From assembly GCA_964023205.1 (NCBI GenBank), contig OZ026836.1, positions 5,446,993-5,510,992 of the forward strand: a stretch of 64,000 nucleotides of DNA, in the 5' to 3' direction. The notes beneath the pieces were generated by a model that was not told where the DNA came from, made no database searches, and worked only from the letters and a program-made list of their open reading frames with translations. Shown one piece after another: positions 6,860 to 63,056 of this stretch (its first letter is position 1; each line of letters begins with the position of its first letter). Made by a program: the position numbers and the translations under genes. The stretch is from Lutraria lutraria. Its lineage: Eukaryota > Mollusca > Bivalvia > Venerida > Mactridae.

Positions 6860-8260
6860 TAGAGACACTTTATGGCAATTATGCTCCTGAAGGGTTTCGT
6901 GCCAATGATTGGGAAGTTAGTTCGCATGACAAATGTAGTTATGCAATTCCTCTCTTTTATACGGCTGACATTTCTCTTACATGGAAACCTTTAAAAGCTA
7001 AATTTTAGACAGAAAGTTATACGTTTGATTGAATATAGATAATTGTACATATCGGTTTCTTCTGACTAAAGTACGTCTTGAATGTAAATATATATAGTAA
7101 AACCCTCAATACCGGACCCCTTCCGGACTGGGCAACAAGTCCGGTTTTTTTTAGAATTCCGGTATTCACAGAGCTTTTGATAACAAATCTGAAAATGGGA
7201 CAATGGGAAAATGTATGGTTTTCAGGGAATAACCGTACCACTTTGCATTTTCTCTCATGCAATTAATTCAGGTCGGTTATAGCAAGAAAAAGGTAATTAA
7301 ATGTCTAGCAAAGAGAGCGACTTTGTTAATATGCTATGTTTTTTTCTGATTGCTCGGCTTACATAGTTTTAGTGTCTATGCAACACAATGAGAAATTTTT
7401 TTTGTTTAAACTGACGACTTACATTGATTATGATTCATGTACAACAAAACATCTATAGACGTATAACGGAACAAAATGCAATATTCCACAAAAGTTTCAG
7501 GATCAATGATATACAATGATGAACAACGTGAAATTATAATAACTTATTACTTGGAGTTTCATTTACTACGATGGGATTTCAAGATAATAAAAGCGTACGT
7601 TGTGTAGACGTTTTAGTATTTCGGCGTCTTTCATAGACACAATTTAGAGGCTCCGTATTCTACTTCTGCTAGTAGACGGTGAATTCGAATCTCACACGGG
7701 CTTACACATACAGAGAAGCTGTCAAGCAAGCTAAAGGACAGTAGTTATACGTCTAGTGTATTCCTCCACTGTTATAACTGAAAAAAAGTCCCCAAATTAC
7801 CGTGACTGTTGGTGCGAACTGATATACACGATTATCGGAAATAAAATTTAGGTATCTTTTATTCGTGTTTTTTTATTTATTCAAAGGAATGCATTACCGT
7901 CGGTTTATTGCCAAAATAGATATATAACATAGAAATGGTAAAGATATATATAATAGTAATTTTGTTTCCTGTCTATATTAACTATAAAGGCGTCTCATTC
8001 CATTAATAATAGTTTATGGAAATAGGTATGATGCCACATTATGATTTCCATGAATACTTTTCCAGACAATCTAGAAATCAATCAATCCCTTTTTTATACA
8101 AAATCCTAATGGTTATTCGTTGTTTTACGTCATTGGTTATTTATGTTTCGCTACAAAATCACTGCTATAGAAGTTAATAAAAGTGCTATCGCAAGTTCTC
8201 GAAACAACATGACATTTTTTGGGGTATGGATTGTTGCAATTTTGGTCTTACTGTGAAGTG
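6860..8260. other. Intergenic with a short MITE-like repeat
   Basis: About 7097-7245 carries AGTAAAACCCTCAATACCGG, CCGGACTGG..CAAGTCCGG and a TTCCGG block. Related sequence is at 49602-49700, so it is a dispersed repeat. About 7770-7830 carries a fragment (GACTGTTGGTGCGA) also seen near 49345. The rest is unremarkable AT-rich DNA. Confidence 0.45.
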
Positions 8261-14740: not shown

Positions 14741-15240
14741 GAAATAAGTAACGCATGTAAGACATGCATATTTATGTATTTTGCAGATGCGCCGTGTTAG
14801 GTATTTTGTTTACAAGATGTACATCAATCAAAATCATTCGATTCCTTTGTGCACTACTGTTACCAGACATTTAAGTTATAATGTGCCCATTTGGTGCCCA
14901 TTTGCTAGGCTAGGCAATCCTCGTCCAATTTCATGAAGAGATTGATATGTTCTAAAATGCAAAAAGTATCATAAGTCGCACCATAACGTATTACCTTACA
15001 CAATAACAAATCTTTGTTCACTGATCTTTTTTGCGGCTCTAATTCTTATTTAATGCATAAATGTTCGTTTTAAATCTTTAATTTAGTAAAATTCTGGTAT
15101 TATACGTTATATTATTATTATGCTTTGACATAATAGAACACGATATTTGTTCTGCACTAGCAAATGATTTATTCAATTAATCACAAGTGTGTTTTTACGT
15201 TACTGTAGTGATGAGTGTATTACAATCTAATTATTACGTT
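14741..15240. other. Intergenic, nothing recognised
   Basis: AT-rich spacer leading into the 21-bp minisatellite. A short direct repeat, TGCCCATTTGGTGCCCATTTG, lies near 14883. Confidence 0.4.
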
Positions 15241-15248
15241 CATTGTCA

Positions 15249-15731
15249 ATCTCTCGTACATCATAGAGAATCTCTCGTACATCATAGAGCATCTCTCGTA
15301 CATCATAGAGCATCTCTCGTACATCATAGAGCATCTCTCGTACATCATAGAGCATCTCTCGTACATCATAGAGCATCTCTCGTACATCATAGAGCATTTC
15401 TCGTACATCATAGAGCATCTCTCGTACATCATAGAGCATTTCTCGTACATCATAGAGCATCTCACGTACATCATAGAGCATTTCTCGTACATCATAGAGC
15501 ATCTCACGTACATCATAGAGCATTTCTCGTACATCATAGAGCATCTCTCGTACATCATAGAGCATCTCTCGTACATCATAGAGCATCTCACGTACATCAT
15601 AGAGCATCTCTCGTACATCATAGAGCATCTCTCGTACATCATAGAGCATCTCTCGTACATCATAGAGCATCTCTCGTACATCATAGAGCATCTCTCGTAC
15701 ATCATAGAGCATCTCTCGTACATCATAGAGC
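15249..15731 (+). repeat. 21-bp minisatellite, about 23 copies
   Basis: The unit is a 21-mer containing CTCTCGTACATCATAGAG, whose CTCT/AGAG ends can pair around a GTAC palindrome. Because 21 is a multiple of three and the unit lacks stops in several frames, long frames run through it on both strands (heptapeptides SLVHHRA, SYIIEHL, MMYERCS). These are by-products, not genes. Variant units (TTTCTCG, CTCACG) are clustered in the middle (about 15395-15600) in near-alternating order, which suggests block duplication. Confidence 0.95.
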
Positions 15732-15734
15732 TGA

Positions 15735-16280
15735 GTTATGTAATAGATACTCGTATAGACCAAAACCTAACCAGTACGTACAATTCATAATTGCACCAGG
15801 TGCGAAGTCAATTTAATATTCTATATTTTTGACAGTTTGTGGTTTTAAACTAACTCAAATTTATGTTCGTGCTTAGAAAGTGAGAAGTAATTATTCACTT
15901 TCATGGAAAGTAATAAATTGGTGACGAAACATTCAATCATGATACGTTTTTCTTCTAGCGCAAACCCCAAGAGCAGCTGCTTGTATGAAACGATGGGTCT
16001 ATTTCCCAGGCATATCTTCTACAGTAATTGTTTGAAACCCTAGCTTATAGTAATCGTTTTACTCTTTAGCCTTTAACAACGGTTAATAGATGGATCGAAC
16101 ACTGCAGTTATCTTCAAGCTGAAACAGTACATGTGTATCAAGAAATCATTCATTATTGGCAACACTTTTTCAGATACGATTCTAGTTGCTAGGATTGCAT
16201 CAGCCGTAACTGCATGTTAGCAGCTTGACTAACCAATAAGATTAAATATTTTGTTTGAAGTTCTAAGTGTATGTTATATG
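15735..16280. other. Intergenic, nothing recognised
   Basis: Unique-looking AT-rich spacer between the minisatellite and the second TTAA MITE. Confidence 0.4.
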
Positions 16281-51594: not shown

Positions 51595-52785
51595 GACAAG
51601 ATAAACTTCACAACAAATCAAGAACAATACTCCAGAATGCATAAAATAATGTCAGTCTGTTGTTTGAACGTTAATTAAATGAAAATATATGATTTTTCCA
51701 AAAAAAGAATTTTTTGTGCGTGAAATAAGACGCTGCTAGCTGCTAACTTCACGCTGCTAGCAGCGGCTAATTTCACATCGAAAAAAAATGAAAATCATAT
51801 ATTTTCAGTTAATTAATGTCCAAACAACAGACTGACATTATTTTATGCATTCTGAAGTATTTTTCTTGATTTGTTGTGAAGTTTATCCGTAGAAATATAG
51901 ATTACGCTGTTACGCTGCTGGGCTGCCAACTTCACGCTGCTAGCAGCGGCTAATTCCACATTGAAAAAAAATGAAAACCATATATTTTCAGTTAATTAAT
52001 GTTTAAACAACAGACTGACATTATTTTATGCATTCTTAAGTATTTAGCTCGATTTGTTGTGAAGTTTATCTGTAGAAATATAGATTACGCTGTTACGCTG
52101 CTAGGCTGCCAACTTCACGCTGCTAGCAGCGGCTAATTTCACATTGAAAAAAAAATGAACATTATAATTATATTTTCTGTTAATGAATGTTTAAACAACA
52201 GACTGACATTATTTTATGCATTCTGAAGTATTTAGCTCGATTTGTTGTGAAGTTTATCTGTATAGATATATATTACGCTGTTACGCTGCTGGGCTGCCAA
52301 TTCACTAAAAGAAACAAAAAATGAAAAAATGTGTAAGTTCTCATCTAATGAACGTTAAAGGAATAAAATCGAATTATATCATCGATTCGTAAGTGTTTAG
52401 CCGGATTTCTTGTGCATTTTATATGTTTGACTATAATAGTCCGCTATGCGGCCGCTACACTGCCAGATTCACAAAATCGATAAAAATCGTATTTTTTTCT
52501 TCTAATAAACATGACAGCAACATTATGTTATTTCTTCATGCGTTTTTAAGTTTTTGCATGATTTGTGGTGCAGTTTAACTGTAGAAATATATTAAGCTGC
52601 TGGGCTGCTAGGCTGCTAACTTCACGCTGCTGGGCTGCTAGGCTGCTGGGCTGCTAACTTCACGCTGCTGGGCTGCTAGGCTGCTGTGCTGCTAACTTCA
52701 CGCTGCTGGGCTGCTAGGCTGCTGGGCTGCTAACTTCACGCTGCTGGGCTGCTAGGCTGCTGGGCTGCCAACTTCACGGACATGT
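51595..52785 (-). mobile_element. Third fold-back-like element, inverted relative to copies A and B
   Basis: It carries the same ~160-190 bp units on the opposite strand (AAGTTTATCTGTAGAAATATAG, ACGCTGTTACGCTGCTGGGC). At 52593-52780 there are five CTG-rich units ending GCTAACTTCAC or GCCAACTTCAC. 52320-52590 is the reverse complement of 31140-31400. At its left end, 51600-51720 and 51740-51900 form a large hairpin centred near 51740 (GCTGCTAGCTGCTAACTTC). Confidence 0.75.
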
Positions 52786-53500: not shown

Positions 53501-53540
53501 TATGTAGCAGTATTGTATTATATACTGTGATATTAACCAG

Positions 53541-53616
53541 ATCGATTAGCACAGTTGATAGAGCAATCTGACTTGCAAGCAGGAGGTCGCAGGTTCAAGT
53601 CTCGCATCGGGTACAT
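53541..53616 (+). repeat. tRNA-like sequence (SINE head, not a working tRNA gene)
   Basis: ATTAGCACAGTTGATAGAGCA is A-box-like. CTTGCAA would be an anticodon loop with TGC, and GGTTCAAGTCTC is B-box-like. The acceptor stem (CCAGATC against CATCGGG) does not pair, so a free tRNA is unlikely. Confidence 0.5.
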
Positions 53617-54461: not shown

Positions 54462-55583
54462 ATGGTAAAGGCGTGTGTACAGTACGGACCTTTTGTCAAG
54501 AGATGAGACATAACTTTATACGCTGATAAACACCTGGATCCTCTTATCAGTAAGTATTTATTATTACTGTGTATCTACTGGGTGATTTGTTTTCATTGGA
54601 CAAACTCTTACTATTAGTCTTAAATGATATCATTGATATCTACAAATTTTGATTGAATATTTATGTTTTGATATATCAGTTTAAAAGTGCAGCTTTTTGT
54701 TTCCTCCCAGATTTTTTTCAAGTCATTTTTTATGTTTTTATCTTAGACGCACGTATGCCTGTCAATAATATTTATTCTAGCAAAAAGTATCAGGTATTTG
54801 TTCCATTTGGTACATTTTATGCAAAATAGATTATATTTGAAATGATGGGGTGTACAAAATTTAATTTGAAATCGCTCTAACAAATGACTTTGATAAGCAA
54901 GAAATGACGTAATGAGACTAACTTTTTCTAGGCACCAGTTAAGAAATCTTCACTATCTTTTTTTTTTTTACTCTTCTAGAAGAGTTAGAAGCCAAAGGTT
55001 TTGAGGTGGTCACTGAAAAGATTGGACAAAGGGATACATGTTATATCTTTATTGGTGACAAGAAGGTGTGGACATGCAGTTTAAACAGGTTTCAAGCAGG
55101 TATGATACAATTATTATCATCGTTTTTCAAACACATGAGGGATTTTTTCGAGGTAATCACTAAACTGCATCATCTCAGTAGATGTAACTTTGGTCTTCTC
55201 CTGTATCATAGTTGTCCTGGCACCATAAATAACTCTGCAGAGACATTGGAAATAAATTGTAGTAAAAGTTGGGCTTTATCTGTTTAAACCCAAACTTATT
55301 GTACTTGCGCGCTTGTCTTTAATTTATAAAGCATTTCAAAATTAACAGTTACCCAATAGTATAAAATGATACCAAATGATTTTTTAGTTTATTGGTAGAA
55401 TGATATAATTTATAACACAAGTTCACATATACTAGGACCACTTACACGAATACATAACTCATTATTACCATAAGTAACTTTTTTTCAGTTCAAAGAAGAA
55501 GATCTGATCCGATGATTCAGGACGCAGTAAAGGCGTGTCTAGCTGCAACATCCGGTCAAACACGTGGTCAAAGCAAGGTCTAG
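54462..55583 (+). CDS. Rdx-type selenoprotein (SELENOH/SELENOW-like), paralogue 1
   Basis: Three exons join cleanly: 54462-54549, 54980-55099, 55489-55583 (GT-AG, both introns phase 1), giving 100 residues if the in-frame TGA at 54504 is read as Sec. Start ATG has a good context (TAACCATGG). Predicted order fits the Rdx thioredoxin-like fold. Residues 1-11 form a strand ending YGPF. Sec is residue 15. A helix follows (DKHLDPLIKELEAKG). Next come strands FEVVTEKI, TCYIFIG and VWTCSL, and a C-terminal helix (RSDPMIQDAVKACLAAT). The distance from WT to the end of the last helix equals that in SELENOH. Position 12, where CxxU proteins have Cys, is Val. Cys50, Cys62 and Cys86 are shared with the paralogue downstream. 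Rdx proteins are small redox proteins. The substrate is unknown. The 3' UTR has a SECIS. Confidence 0.85.
54504..54506 (+). other. In-frame TGA read as selenocysteine (codon 15), paralogue 1
   Basis: The frame is open for 14 codons before (from ATG) and 14 after, and then splices in frame to exon 2. The paralogue has TGA at the identical codon, in the context R-TGA-x-I-T. Confidence 0.85.
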
Positions 55584-56059
55584 TTATAACTTATGGACGT
55601 TGATACATGTTGCCATTGATAAGAGCTAATATAGTGTCCAAAATATAATTGTGGCAGTTAGATATAAAAAAACATAACGATGAAGAGTTTATTTCAAAGC
55701 TATTTAATAGTGAAGTTTACTCTGATACGATTAAACTGTGTTTTCCGACATATCACCCGCCATATTGTAAATTGGTACCCGTCCCGAGATACCAACAACA
55801 TAGTCAAAGGGTATCAATCTCCGGGAAACAGTGAACACAAAACTTAATTAGTTTGGCTCCCAAATTGACGTAAACTGTATTTGTTATCAATTAACTGTAT
55901 GCATTATAATCTGTGTCGATATTATGCAAATATATTTATATATTAGGTACATGTATATTACATAAGTATATAACATGCGTTCTATTTGTACGTATAAGAT
56001 GAATTTAGCTTTTGTGATGATTAACTAAATAGAAAATGAACATGGATACCACGTGATGA

Positions 56060-56105
56060 ATGACGTGTAGATTATCAAGCTATATATAGTTTAATTTACA
56101 CTGAT
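56060..56105 (+). promoter_or_regulatory. SECIS element, paralogue 1
   Basis: Core ATGA (56060-56063), 5' helix strand GTGTAGATTA (56065-56074), unpaired AA (56077-56078), a possible apical mini-helix CTATA/TATAG (form 2), 3' strand TAATTTACAC (56092-56101), then TGAT (56102-56105). The ten helix pairs include one G-U. AATAAA lies 64 bases further on (56169-56174). Confidence 0.88.
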
Positions 56106-56309
56106 GTAAAATGCATATTGAATCTGATGGTGTCATTGTTTGTAGTTGAACATCAATTAGTAATTATAAATAAAAACTGACTTTGATTTTCGTTTCGTAG
56201 TTATTTTCCATCTCTTGATAATACTTCAACAAATATAATGAGAACACGTTATAACCCATTGAATCACATGAAGGTGTTCCGTGGTCTAGTGTTCCGAGTG
56301 ATGACCTAC

Positions 56310-56497
56310 CCCTCGATGATAACTCAAGCCCATCATGTTTCACATGTGAGGAAGCTTTCCCAGCTAGCCTACGGAAGAGTGATGGTGCTGATCAGGTATA
56401 CACCTACGGTCTTCCTCTGCCGTAGAAGTCGGAAGGTCGTCAAATGACCTCGGTAGTTAGTACGTCGTTAAACCAAAGTGAAAAAATAAATCAAACA
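56310..56497 (+). mobile_element. SINE-like element just downstream of paralogue 1
   Basis: Contains GTGAGGAAGCTTTCCCAGCTAG, a partial inverted repeat with CCTACGGTCTTCCTCTGCCGTAG, and a tail GTAGTTAGTACGTCGTTAAACC followed by an A-rich AAAAATAAATCAAA. GTTAAACC tails recur in other SINEs in the window. Confidence 0.55.
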
Positions 56498-56499
56498 CT

Positions 56500-57640
56500 T
56501 CCAAGTTTCACCTTTAATAGTATGCAAACACTCTTACATGGTGTAATTCATAAAGCGGCCGAAAAAAAACGAGCGCTTAGCTCACATGGTACTATAGCGT
56601 TTGTAGAGTTCGAGTCCTGGACGCAGCACATGTTCTGTGTAATAAATTGGTTAAGGGCGTTGCGTCTAGAATATTTCGCCCTTCTTAGCTCATCTCACGG
56701 CATCTTTCATGTGAAGACGTTGACAGTTCCGTGAATAGGACAAGCTTAGAACTCAAGTAGCTTTATAGTCTGCTGGTTCATATTAAAACAATGTGGTAAA
56801 CATGCGCAAAAACACTAATATCATCATTTGAAATAGGACAGATATGTGCAAATGATTTTAATCACTTAAATGATATTCTTTGTAACACACAACATAAAAA
56901 TCTCAGATGGTAGCTGTATGGCGAACAGAGTGTGATAGGTCTCAATACTGAATATTATTGAACTTAGAAAAAGGAAATACATGTATATCAGTCTGCGAAT
57001 GTCATAAAATCTATCAATTTCTGTGGAAAAAAACGAAAAAATCTCGGTTTCGTTTCATCATTTTTTCTGGCATGGAGTTTTTTTGTATTCCTGAAATATT
57101 TTCGCTTATTTATCGTACATGGTATTCTAGTATACGCTAACAACGTTTTTGCATGATCGATAAGATTTCCATCATCTCATTACAATTTCATCCGCAATTA
57201 TTTATTGAGACACATGCACGTACTGGAGCCTAGTATATTTACTGTACGGAAAAATGAACCACTCAATATTTTCTATACTGATTATTGACATGGTTAGTAT
57301 TGATAAATGAATGGTCGAAAAACGTACGGAAAACTGACCCTATTTTTGCACACTTAAGCAGTATAGAGTTTCACATAATTATTCTGTAGCTACAATCGAC
57401 AATGTCATGCTTTAATTTGTAAAGCGTGTATAGTATATAAACCGTACGTGAGGATCGATTCATTAATATACCTTCTGGTTTACGCGCAGTTATTTTATTA
57501 ATTTTTTACTTTGTATAATTGTAAAATTTAATTATTAGTAAGTTTTATGCCGACACAGACAGGGACCGTGTGATTAGAGGTCTTGGAGAACTGTAAGAGA
57601 TAGTGTTAGAAGTGTGACAGTGAACATTGTATTGGTTGTG
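56500..57640. other. Intergenic between the selenoprotein paralogues
   Basis: A 96-codon frame at 56444-56734 overlaps the SINE tail and has no domain. The rest is AT-rich. I see no third copy of the selenoprotein exons. Confidence 0.45.
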
Positions 57641-57647
57641 TTTAAAC

Positions 57648-59043
57648 ATGGTGAAGTTGTTTATACATTATGGACCTTTTATGGTCAGATGACACATTAC
57701 GATATACACTGATAAACATCTGGCTCCTCTTATCAGTAAGTACAAATTATTATATTTACGGAGAGTTACTAAGTGTTCACATGACAAACACTCATTTGAT
57801 TTCGTGAATGATGATTGGTTTGAAAAATAATTCGTTTACAAACAAATTTGAAATTTCTCAGAATGTTCAAGTCACTAATTCAATTTATAAAGAATCGAAC
57901 TAGGAAGTTGCGTAGCGCTGAGATCATGGATAATTCAGACTAGTTTTGACTTTTCATTGTCTTTAATCAAATTGAACCATGTCGTAGAAAATCCAACCAA
58001 TTTTTATTAAACCAGAAATCCATTTATTATACATTTATGGTAGATGTTTATGATTATGGCTTATGCATGCGTGTATATAAATGAGTCCTTGATGGTAATC
58101 AGAAATCTTTTAAAGATGTGATTGAGATAATAGCAATTCGTTATGTTGGTGAGAAAGATATAAATCTTTGGGTTTATGATAATACAAGTGTGGTATCTGA
58201 CACTGAACTAACACTAGCTGGTTTTATAATGTCAGGAGAGTTAGAAGCCAATGGTTTTCAAGTGGTCACCGTAAAAATCCATAGAAGAGACGCTTGTAAT
58301 ATCGTTTACAACAAGACTGAAGTGTGGACATGTAGTCTTAAAGAGTTTCAAACAGGTAAGAGAAAGTTACTTCTATAATAAACATATTTCTAGAGGCATG
58401 TTGTCAGTTTGGCGTACAGTCTGTAACTGTTTGTTTGGGAATTAGTAGTTTTTACCTGGTTATCCACAAGTAGCTGTCCCCAGCTTCACTGTATGATTCA
58501 GCGACGTGGAGCCTAAACATAATGTATTCAACCATTATTGTCATATTGTCATGGTGAACACGTCGTGCACATGGGTTGAACCCTCATTTACGGGACCCCT
58601 AGACCTAATAATCGAAATATCTTTATTGTGCTAACCATGTTAGATCAAGACATGTACGTGTGGAGGATGATAAAATATAACGATTTCATAGACATTGACC
58701 CATACATGTACATAATAAGATTGCAGGTTAATAATCTACATTATCACAAAAATCCACTTTGGAAAAAATAAGCATTAACTTTAAATAAGAATTAATACTT
58801 TTTTCCTTTCCTGTTAAATCAATATTTTACGATTTTTAATAAAGTGCATATTGACCATTTCATTTATACCTCATTACATACGAAGTTGTGTCATACTTCA
58901 GATCTTGATTTCCCGAATATTGTACCTTTTTAGAGGATAGAAAAAGATCTGACCCGTTGATAAAAAAAGCTGTAAACGCTTGTCTTGCGGCAACATCCGG
59001 GGAAATGGAACAAAAACATGGATCATACCAAGTGGCGGTATAA
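57648..59043 (+). CDS. Rdx-type selenoprotein (SELENOH/SELENOW-like), paralogue 2
   Basis: Exons 57648-57735, 58236-58355 and 58934-59043, with the same 88- and 120-nt first exons and phase-1 introns as paralogue 1. Product is 105 residues with Sec at 15 (TGA 57690-57692). Identity to paralogue 1 is about 62% over 93 positions. Fully kept blocks include YGPF, DKHL, ELEA, VWTCSL, RSDP and ACLAATSG. Position 12 is Met, so again no CxxU. The last exon ends differently (EMEQKHGSY..., TAA stop), so the C-terminal tail is free to vary. Exon 2 could also start 120 nt earlier in frame (58116), giving a 40-residue insertion. The 3' UTR has a SECIS. Redox role is inferred from the fold; no partner is evident nearby. 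Confidence 0.85.
57690..57692 (+). other. In-frame TGA read as selenocysteine (codon 15), paralogue 2
   Basis: Context GTC AGA TGA CAC ATT. It is at the same codon as in paralogue 1 although 10 of the other 28 exon 1 residues differ. Confidence 0.85.
58356..58933 (+). other. Intron 2 of paralogue 2
   Basis: Donor GTAAGA, acceptor TTTTTAG. It may contain a SINE scrap near 58400-58520 (GGCGTACAGTC, GTTATCCACAAG). Nothing else is recognised. Confidence 0.6.
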
Positions 59044-59397
59044 ACCTAGGTAGCGACACGCACGCCATTTGGTCCTGGTTGGAACGAGTGAATCTTTGTG
59101 AATCATGAACAATCGAGAAGTAAAAAAGATAAAGAAAAATGAGTAATCGAAGAATTCAAGTCCGGTTTTTCTAAGTGGGGTTATTTTTCATAAAATTGAT
59201 TAAGTTTACATAACAATATTTTAGCCTGAACAATAAAATTGTATAGCCATAAGAAAAGTTGAAATGATACCATTTAGAAAAATGGTGCTTTGTTCCTTGA
59301 TGTGTTGTTTTATCGAGAAGGTGTTTATTTTCACCACTATACGCGTTGAATGATAAACTTCTTGTTCTGTGATCTCAGTCTGATGAATGCATGATTT

Positions 59398-59445
59398 ATG
59401 ACGTGTAGATTATCAAGCTATGAATGTGGCATAATCTACCCTGAT
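59398..59445 (+). promoter_or_regulatory. SECIS element, paralogue 2
   Basis: ATGA (59398-59401), helix strand GTAGATTAT (59405-59413) pairing perfectly with ATAATCTAC (59431-59439), AA (59415-59416), an apical mini-helix GCTA/TGGC, then CC and TGAT (59442-59445). The 19 bases from ATGA through AA are identical to paralogue 1, while the 3' strand differs but still pairs. AATAAA follows at 59507-59512, 62 bases on. Confidence 0.88.
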
Positions 59446-59538
59446 GATGGTTTCATGTTAAATCTGGTGGTGCAATATTTGTTTTGAAAACGTTGTTACT
59501 GATAAAAATAAATTCTATACCTGATCTTGTTTTGCTTA

Positions 59539-60187: not shown

Positions 60188-63056
60188 TCAGAAAATTTTA
60201 CAGGATTCCAATCTTCTCTTCTTTTTTATCACTGGTTTTAGGACAGCCCTTATGGCATCATCAAACACTGTTTTCACACCTTCATGTAATTTTGCTGAAC
60301 ATTCAACGTATCTAGTGGCACTAAGTTTTTGAGCTAAAGAACGTCCCTAAAAACAAATAAAAACATTACTCGATTGTTTGCACAGTTGCACAGACCAGAT
60401 GTTGCATGTTGGTAAGTAATGATCTTTTTCCGTACTAAATGAAAGGAAAAGATATCTTAAAGTTGTGTACCAATGAATTATTGATTTATATTGACAGCAA
60501 TACCTTAATCAACAACAAACCGATTTTTAAAATAAAGTTACTTTAACAGTTATAGTTTAAGCTCCAATGTTAGCAATAAGTGATTTAGTTGAAAATAAAA
60601 CAGGATTTATAAGGTGTAGACTTACCTCGACTTCTTGAATAACGTCTCCTGACTTTCCAGTTTTCTCTTGACGAACATCTTTCTTTGTTCCAACAAGAAC
60701 GATTGGAGTATTCGGACAGTGATGTTCGATTTCCGGGTACCACTGAACAAAGACAATGCATTTTCAGAAATTATGATATTCTAAGGGTACGTACAAAAGA
60801 TAAAGACAGATGTTTAGCAGCAATGCTATCATAATGCAGAAGTGAAGCACTTTTTCGCCATCTTTTTATCACCCCTGGTATTATCAACGAATAATGATGT
60901 ATTAATATTTACAGGGTTAGTAACTGACTCGATACAGGATATACGGGTCTGTGGAAAACCAGGGCGAGACCGAAGGTATCATTATTCTGAACAAAAGGTA
61001 CATGAATATATCACGCAGACTACCTTCCTTTTCATTTCCAATAAAAATCTCCATTACATACCCAATATATTCTGGTAACCTAATATAGGATGTATTAGGT
61101 CCACCACGTGACGTCAAAACATCCAATGTCAGAAGAGCATTTTGTAGTAGGCGTGATATAACATAATGCTATAAGGTTATCGAGAAACAAAAATAGCCAG
61201 TCATTATTTCAGACGGAAAACTTAACTTTTTACCTTTAATCTAACGTTTTCGAATGATGTCCGAGAATCCACGGAGAAACAAATAATGAACACATCCTGA
61301 AACATTAACGTAAATATATAACTACAATATATAACAGTCTATGTCAATATACAGTGCGACCTCTCCAAAGCAACACGCTTTAGGAGAAGTAAAATTATGT
61401 TGCCGTTGAGAGGTTGTTCGTCTACAAAGGTTAGCTTTATAGTTAAATCGTGCAGTGGAAAAAATCATACTTTTGTTGAAGGGAGGTTGTTTCTCAAGAG
61501 AGCGCCGCGCTTGAGAGGTTGTACTGTATATACCAATTTATATCAATATACACCAACATATGCCATCATCAATAAACTATATAGTATTGGTAGTGATAAT
61601 TGATAAATGTCCAGTGTCATATGAGAGAGACTATGTCAATATGGATGTTAGTTATAAATTGGCCAATGTGAGTAAACTGAGTCAATACGATTGCATTTTG
61701 ATTGAGAAGGAAGGCCAGTACGACAGTCCGAGGCCAAATAACTAAGCCAATATGAAATCACTTGATTTATGACATTATAATATAAACCGAAGTACATCAA
61801 TTAACACAAATTTACGCTCAGTTCAAGACTGAATGATATTTCAAATCGTGTAAGTAATTTTAAGATAAATTTAAAAGGTGTTAGCGAGATAGCATATCAA
61901 TGATTAATCATAAACTATTGTTCTTACATTCCGGTTTGAAATCGTGTTATATTTACCGTTTGTGGATAGGATAGAGGTCTCAGTCTGTCGTAATCAGATT
62001 GTCCGGCTGTGTCCCACAGACCTAGTGTAAATATTTGCTGGTCAACTTTCACGTTAGCCTGATAGTGCTCAAACCTAAAAATGTATACACTACGTCATTT
62101 AGTAAACATATCAAACTGTGTGTACTTTTGTTTTGAAAAACAAAACCATCACGAATTTACGTTTCAAATGTGGTATTTACAATACATGCCGATATTTGTA
62201 TCAATAATCTATCACCTTAACATTCTATCTATTAAATTGATTATTAAATCTACTCAAACTTATATCTCATCCTTTTAGGTTTATCATATGTACATCAGTT
62301 TCTCTTTAGTTAATTGATCGAAGTTTGAGCAGATAGTATTTTGTAAAACTGACTACCTAAAATCATATGATTTAGGACTTGAATTTGTAGTAAAAATATA
62401 AACTAAAATTATTTCTCTGTATTCGGTTTAAACCTCTTTTAGTGTCATATTTAACTTGACTAATTCTATTCACCACCACTGTCCGATGCTAACCGCATTT
62501 AATGATAAACTTTATTTTTTAGTTTTTATTAATGAGTTAATTAATATGCAAATTTTATCATATAACAAAATACAACTGTATACTTACACGGTGGGTATGT
62601 ACTCTCCAGGAAAGGCATTCTGTGTGTAGCACATTAATAAACAGGTTTTCCCCACACATCTAAATGTTAGAAATAAACGCATTAAAAATCAATCTCAAAC
62701 AACAATAAATGTTTTAAGGTATCTAAATTATTTAATGTAAACACTAAAAACTCAAACAACATCGTTAAATATACACGTAGAATCTTAATTATAATCAACT
62801 GGTACCAGTTAACTTCGTCTGTGCACTGCTACACGGAACGGGTACCAAAATAAATATATAATGAAATTACAATAATTATTAATCTCACTTGATAATATTG
62901 TATAATTGTGATTTCATGCATGTGTAATTGACTCGGTTGTTGAATCAAAGCGCTGTGAGGAACCGAAACTTATAGTTTGATAATGAAAAAAACAAAACAA
63001 TAAATGTCCACTTACCCGTCCCCAACAATCACACATTTCAATGGACGAGCCTGCAT
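60188..63056 (-). CDS. Rho/Rac-like small GTPase, complete six-exon gene
   Basis: Exons in transcription order are 63056-63016, 62659-62588, 62074-61957, 61296-61234, 60742-60626 and 60346-60188, all GT-AG, joining without a stop to 189 residues. Residues 12-19 are the P loop GDGCVGKT. T37 is in switch I (YIPTVFEHY). DTAGQ at 59-63 starts switch II. TKKD at 117-120 is the G4 motif and CSAK at 153-156 the G5 motif. The C terminus has a basic patch KKKRR and the CaaX box CKIF, so prenylation and membrane attachment are expected. [25 protein letters not shown] is Rac-like. Oddities: Ser64 where Rac/Cdc42 have Glu, and a Rho insert about six residues shorter than in Rac. Family-level activity is GTP-switch control of actin and vesicles. 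It is not assignable to Rac1, Cdc42 or RhoA orthology, so probably a lineage-specific Rho member. Confidence 0.95.
61351..61530 (+). mobile_element. MITE with ATACAGTGCGACCTCTC ends, in GTPase intron 3
   Basis: Left end ATACAGTGCGACCTCTC and right end GAGAGGTTGTACTGTAT are near-perfect inverted repeats. Same family as 47257-47416. The 68-codon frame inside is incidental. Confidence 0.75.

Follow-up and report, generated by a model that had tools for sequence, protein, structure and literature searches.

Putative selenoprotein genes of the UPF0728/C10orf53 family clustered in the genome of the bivalve Lutraria lutraria

Introduction

Animal selenoprotein families are newly found only rarely, and standard annotation loses them, UGA being taken as a stop. 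For invertebrates, Table 1 of PMC3473315 lists 21 selenoprotein families in six species, one of them a mollusc. The UPF0728/C10orf53 family is represented in the PDB by mouse C10orf53 (9d2f, chain V), located in radial spoke 3 of respiratory cilia. A predicted model of a vertebrate UPF0728 protein resembles Selenoprotein W (SelW) and thioredoxin. The active site of SelW lies in the loop between beta1 and alpha1. Here we analysed 64,000 nucleotides (nt) of Lutraria lutraria DNA (assembly GCA_964023205.1, contig OZ026836.1, forward-strand positions 5,446,993 to 5,510,992; hereafter the window), which hold a tandem pair of UPF0728/C10orf53 genes (genes 1 and 2, or g1 and g2), a third copy (g3) lying past the right end. 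Each has an in-frame TGA, and we consider it highly probable from the sequence that the UGA of this cluster is decoded as selenocysteine (Sec) with the help of a Sec insertion sequence (SECIS) in the 3' untranslated region (UTR).

Results

Three genes with a homologous in-frame TGA

The window has a GC content of about 33% and contains intron-bearing genes. A first-pass annotation, made from the letters of the window, had described two adjacent three-exon genes with exons of 88 and 120 nt and phase-1 introns, each bearing a TGA at codon 15 of an otherwise open spliced frame, and both points were borne out when we mapped the exons in joined frames. The features of the two genes are, in window positions:

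54462..54549, + strand: gene 1 exon 1 (88 nt), starting with ATG and encoding MVKACVQYGPFVKR-U-DITLYADKHLDPLI
54504..54506, + strand: gene 1 in-frame TGA, codon 15, proposed Sec
54980..55099, + strand: gene 1 exon 2 (120 nt)
55489..55583, + strand: gene 1 exon 3 (95 nt), ending in TAG
56054..56110, + strand: gene 1 SECIS-like element, core ATGA...AA...TGAT at 56060-56105
56169..56174, + strand: gene 1 poly(A) signal AATAAA, read from the sequence
57648..57735, + strand: gene 2 exon 1 (88 nt)
57690..57692, + strand: gene 2 in-frame TGA, codon 15, proposed Sec
58236..58355, + strand: gene 2 exon 2 (120 nt)
58934..59043, + strand: gene 2 exon 3 (110 nt), ending in TAA
59392..59450, + strand: gene 2 SECIS-like element, core at 59398-59445
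59507..59512, + strand: gene 2 poly(A) signal AATAAA, read from the sequence

Each of the four introns is of phase 1 with GT-AG ends, and the joined frame of either gene contains a single internal TGA and no other internal stop. The two proteins are 62% identical over 93 amino acids (aa), in agreement with the earlier estimate of about 62%, and 10 of the 14 residues that follow the TGA in exon 1 are identical. A blastn comparison of the two gene regions yielded four blocks at E<1e-10, one for each exon, that of exon 1 extending about 79 nt into intron 1, and one for the stretch from SECIS to poly(A) signal (56054-56176), together with two further blocks at E=0.11. The ratio of nonsynonymous to synonymous substitution (dN/dS) between genes 1 and 2 was 0.35 over 92 codons, 0.32 after the TGA, and 0.82 for the 14 codons before it, where there are few sites.

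Genome searches with either protein as a query returned an extra weak match 1.4 kb past the right end of the window (E-values of 0.79 and 0.057), on a stretch that we call L019. The match belongs to a complete third gene:

L019 2618-2534, 1641-1522 and 954-878, - strand: g3 exons (85, 120 and 77 nt)
L019 866-789, - strand: g3 SECIS-like hairpin with lower helix, directly after the stop, within 120 bases

Both introns of g3 are phase 1, and its TGA, at codon 14, falls in the same alignment column as in genes 1 and 2, the one-residue shift being due to a shorter loop. An in-frame TGA within an otherwise open, conserved coding frame is thereby found in 3/3 copies. Between g1 and g3, synonymous change has reached saturation (proportion of synonymous differences, pS, 0.81 after the TGA), and no dN/dS ratio is obtainable there. 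A search of 10 kb to the left of the window and of another 10 kb past L019 gave no further copy at E<=0.1, and protein searches of the whole assembly (728.5 Mb, 71 contigs) gave, besides g1-g3, one chance-level match only (E 5.9). A Pfam family search of the genome recovered the canonical UPF0728 gene described below and not g1-g3, so that diverged exon-split copies could escape it.

SECIS-like elements

The first-pass annotation had also reported a SECIS-like structure in each 3' UTR, and a pattern scanner combined with folding located it in both: the layout is ATGA, helix, AA, apical stem, helix, TGAT, and each element sits about 60 bases before AATAAA. When a strict hand-written scanner was run on both strands of the window, the gene 2 element ranked first (score 23) and the gene 1 element second (21), with a chance rate of 0.155 per 64-kb strand at scores >=21 (second-order Markov null, 400 simulations). 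The g3 hairpin, for which looser settings were used, scored 20 and was the sole match >=14 in the 3 kb scanned, where 0.04 were expected at its score; within 120 nt, the chance expectation at the loose setting is about 0.002. Core pattern and helix are accordingly found in three 3' UTRs, and we treat the three structures as candidate elements.

Paired positions carry five substitutions between the elements of genes 1 and 2, and pairing is kept in four of the five. Conservation of the 3' UTR between these genes is limited to the block from the SECIS through the poly(A) signal, the part from stop to SECIS being unalignable by blastn. Folding energy alone is unremarkable (z-scores in 106-nt stretches, -1.56 and -0.62; in stretches of 63-64 nt, -1.55 and -1.36), and the gene 2 element adopts another structure when folded in the longer stretch. 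Rfam SECIS_1 could be aligned to the g3 element over its full length (model positions 1-64, 19.3 bits, E 0.16), below the gathering threshold of 35. A covariance model of the g1 and g2 elements did not find g3 and gave no credible site at the canonical gene, which is a weak test since g3 was missed; because of this miss, the g3 candidate is no sequence copy of the g1 and g2 elements.

Selenocysteine machinery and glutathione peroxidase controls

Two loci matched tRNA-Sec with 78.8 and 78.7 bits, against a cut-off of 47, and ARAGORN likewise calls them tRNA-SeC(tca); runner-up matches reached at most 44.9 bits, and the one inspected was a tRNA-Ser. The two tRNA-Sec genes (L025 and L026) lie on contigs C5 and C16 of the same genome. 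Pfam GSHPx gave 18 matches in the genome, 7 of them with exactly one TGA and no other stop. In six of these seven the TGA stands in the context N-[VT]-A-[ST]-[LY]-U-G, which we take to be the Sec site of glutathione peroxidases (GPX); the seventh is a minus-strand match. By its two tRNA-Sec(tca) genes and its GPX exons with a TGA at the Sec site, the genome possesses Sec machinery.

The GPX genes also served as controls for Rfam. At the seven loci with a GPX C-terminal exon, each taken with up to 1.5 kb downstream, the loose scanner found a match of 19-22 in four, three of which are near-identical in sequence, with 0.2 expected by chance over all seven. Rfam at E<=5 reported no SECIS at five GPX loci, three of them bearing scanner elements, and its SECIS search of the whole genome gave nothing (150 of 17337 candidates scored). 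Because the GPX candidates and the genome-wide scan were blank as well, we regard Rfam as insensitive here and did not take a miss as a negative test. Two weak Rdx exon matches, examined as further SECIS controls, had no SECIS.

Relation to UPF0728/C10orf53

The three copies match Pfam UPF0728 (PF15092) with 44.6, 48.2 and 51.6 bits (gathering threshold 27), covering nearly the whole model. A canonical UPF0728 gene starts at C5:33490556, 28 Mb away. Its two introns agree with those of g1-g3 in position and phase, and its exon 2 is likewise 120 nt long, but the gene lacks the TGA and has no scanner match >=16 in 4.3 kb downstream, whereas g1-g3 have both a TGA and a SECIS candidate. This non-Sec gene with the same introns elsewhere on the chromosome, like the third member of the cluster and the assignment to UPF0728/C10orf53, lay beyond the view of the first-pass annotation. 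The canonical protein is 59% identical to a snake protein, the corresponding values for genes 1 and 2 being only 24% and 30%, and the Sec genes therefore form a separate, diverged branch.

Aligning g1-g3 to 41 UPF0728 rows with hhalign gave a probability of 99.4% and aligned Sec with the Cys of the snake sequence YGPYRSCG. At this position all 3/3 paralogues have Sec (TGA); Cys is a minority state, seen by motif count in no fewer than 12 of 122 aligned rows, each of these from a vertebrate. By alignment onto the vertebrate model, Sec would map to the beta1-alpha1 loop.

The nearest relative found outside the genome is a protein of another bivalve, Mactra antiquata (P0001), the one match among the 9 candidates of a first protein search. 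A second search gave 169 matches, the 120 listed being P0001 and 119 proteins that are vertebrate by name, and a third, built with masked rows and with made-up variants, gave 5 candidates, again with P0001 only. The relatives sampled are thus M. antiquata and vertebrates, other invertebrate UPF0728 proteins lying outside this sample. Viral contigs and phages held no relatives.

Weighing the selenoprotein reading

Several points weaken the case for decoding as Sec. At looser scanner settings, three unrelated minus-strand hairpins of the window outscore the two elements (27, 25 and 25 versus 23 and 21), so the hairpin score alone is no proof of a SECIS. Rfam SECIS_1 reported neither window element, even at E<=10. 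The residue opposite Sec in the genome's own canonical copy is Thr, not Cys. The relative outside the genome is the one M. antiquata protein, which is annotated as 83 aa, begins near exon 2 and misses exon 1; such an annotation would be expected if a gene predictor had dropped an exon 1 that bears a TGA.

If the UGA were a true stop, or allowed a low level of readthrough without Sec, the functional product would begin in or near exon 2, and both the in-frame ATG that gene 2 has where intron 1 ends (MSGELEANGF) and the start of the M. antiquata relative fit such a product. However, gene 1 and g3 have no comparable start beside exon 2, exon 2 contains a Met in 0/3 copies, the residues of exon 1 after the TGA are conserved between genes 1 and 2, exon 1 encodes, by alignment, the beta1 strand and the Sec loop, and the SECIS is left unexplained; we judge this scenario very unlikely. 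Slighter still is the probability we give to pseudogenes of a UPF0728 copy with a nonsense mutation predating the duplication: one inherited mutation would indeed explain why every copy has its stop at that codon, but 0/3 copies have a second stop, a frameshift or a damaged splice site, the dN/dS of 0.32 between genes 1 and 2 indicates purifying selection on the codons after the TGA, and conservation of the 3' UTR begins at the SECIS and stops at the poly(A) signal. Moreover, simulated neutral decay left 75 codons free of a new stop with a chance of 0.11-0.04 per copy at a divergence of 0.3-0.7; these figures are suggestive but not decisive alone.

Least probable of the three is that the SECIS likeness arose by chance and was passed to both duplicates by common ancestry. 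Two paralogues are not independent events, about 1.3 strict matches >=16 and 0.77 loose matches >=20 are expected per 64-kb strand by chance, and the unrelated hairpins just mentioned reach 25-27 with the loose scanner. Yet g3, although saturated at synonymous sites, has its own, differing candidate within 120 bases of the stop, where so few are expected; the canonical gene shows neither a TGA nor a scanner match >=16; and the UTR from stop to SECIS is unalignable between genes 1 and 2. Because the TGA is homologous in three paralogues, SECIS candidates are present, the protein is conserved on both sides of the TGA and the genome encodes tRNA-Sec, Sec is by far the best reading of the UGA, which upholds the first-pass annotation in calling the pair selenoprotein genes.

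Other features of the window and its flank

The three minus-strand hairpins obtained at loose settings start near 7169, 30423 and 42243 (reverse-strand positions 56832, 33578 and 21758), and two of them are the same sequence at two places, likely repeat elements. Between gene 2 and g3, exon-like open stretches of a Ras/Rho-type small GTPase occupy 60560-62094 on the minus strand, one of which passes the Pfam Ras cut-off. Rfam likens a long hairpin at 51634-51853 to MIR2606, below the cut-off (60.8 bits); a small inverted-repeat transposon would be our guess. A tRNA-like stretch at 53540-53613 has 29.9 bits to Rfam tRNA, ARAGORN finding none there, and a second was seen by eye on the minus strand near the right end of the window; either is perhaps a tRNA-derived short interspersed nuclear element. 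A short tandem repeat at 15187-15816 is open in several frames, with VHHRAS-type units, and upstream of g3 a tandem repeat array spans about 5700-9900 of L019 (many evenly spaced weak tblastn matches).

Discussion

We propose that g1, g2 and g3 form a local cluster of UPF0728/C10orf53 selenoprotein genes that share the intron plan of the canonical gene. Once expressed, each three-exon mRNA would have its UGA at codon 15 (codon 14 in g3) read by tRNA-Sec under the control of the SECIS in the 3' UTR, giving predicted products of 93-105 residues. These would adopt a thioredoxin/SelW-like fold with a selenol in the beta1-alpha1 loop and may act as small thiol or peroxide oxidoreductases, possibly in motile cilia or sperm, a location suggested because the mammalian relative is a component of radial spoke 3. 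We hold a redox role to be somewhat more probable than its absence, and put forward a ciliary role tentatively. A wider and rather doubtful possibility is that UPF0728/C10orf53 is a SelW-related thioredoxin-fold family that turned structural in radial spoke 3, and that its mollusc branch, in motile cilia or sperm flagella, works as a redox enzyme or redox sensor with Sec in the former active-site loop. If so, this would to our knowledge be the first time that a selenoprotein is connected with a protein family of the axoneme.

In the open-licence PubMed Central (PMC) literature, UPF0728 is named in three papers and C10orf53 in at least 20, and their titles and the starts of their abstracts connect neither name with selenocysteine or selenium; 'C10orf53' and 'selenoprotein' do co-occur, once each, in the text of two papers. 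Judged from its genes, UPF0728/C10orf53 is very probably a selenoprotein family without earlier report in the literature covered. The case would add such a family to those of animals and suggests that an uncharacterised ciliary protein is of redox ancestry, and three diverged Sec copies beside a non-Sec relative in one genome offer a clean setting for how genes gain Sec.

We considered a plain SelW-family gene and rejected it, Pfam giving UPF0728 and no Rdx match: the Rdx profile (PF10262) had no match at E<=10 for g1 and g2, under HMMER filters that drop most weak matches, and none at E<=1 for g3. The CxxU/CxxC motif of Selenoprotein W/Rdx is also not in g1-g3, which have V, M or Y three residues ahead of Sec. 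What the cluster may have in common with Selenoprotein W is a small thioredoxin-like beta-alpha-beta-beta-beta-alpha fold with Sec in the beta1-alpha1 loop, as placed by alignment on a predicted model. With the known invertebrate selenoprotein families, the 21 of Table 1 of PMC3473315 not including UPF0728, it would share the common logic of a UGA codon and a SECIS in the 3' UTR.

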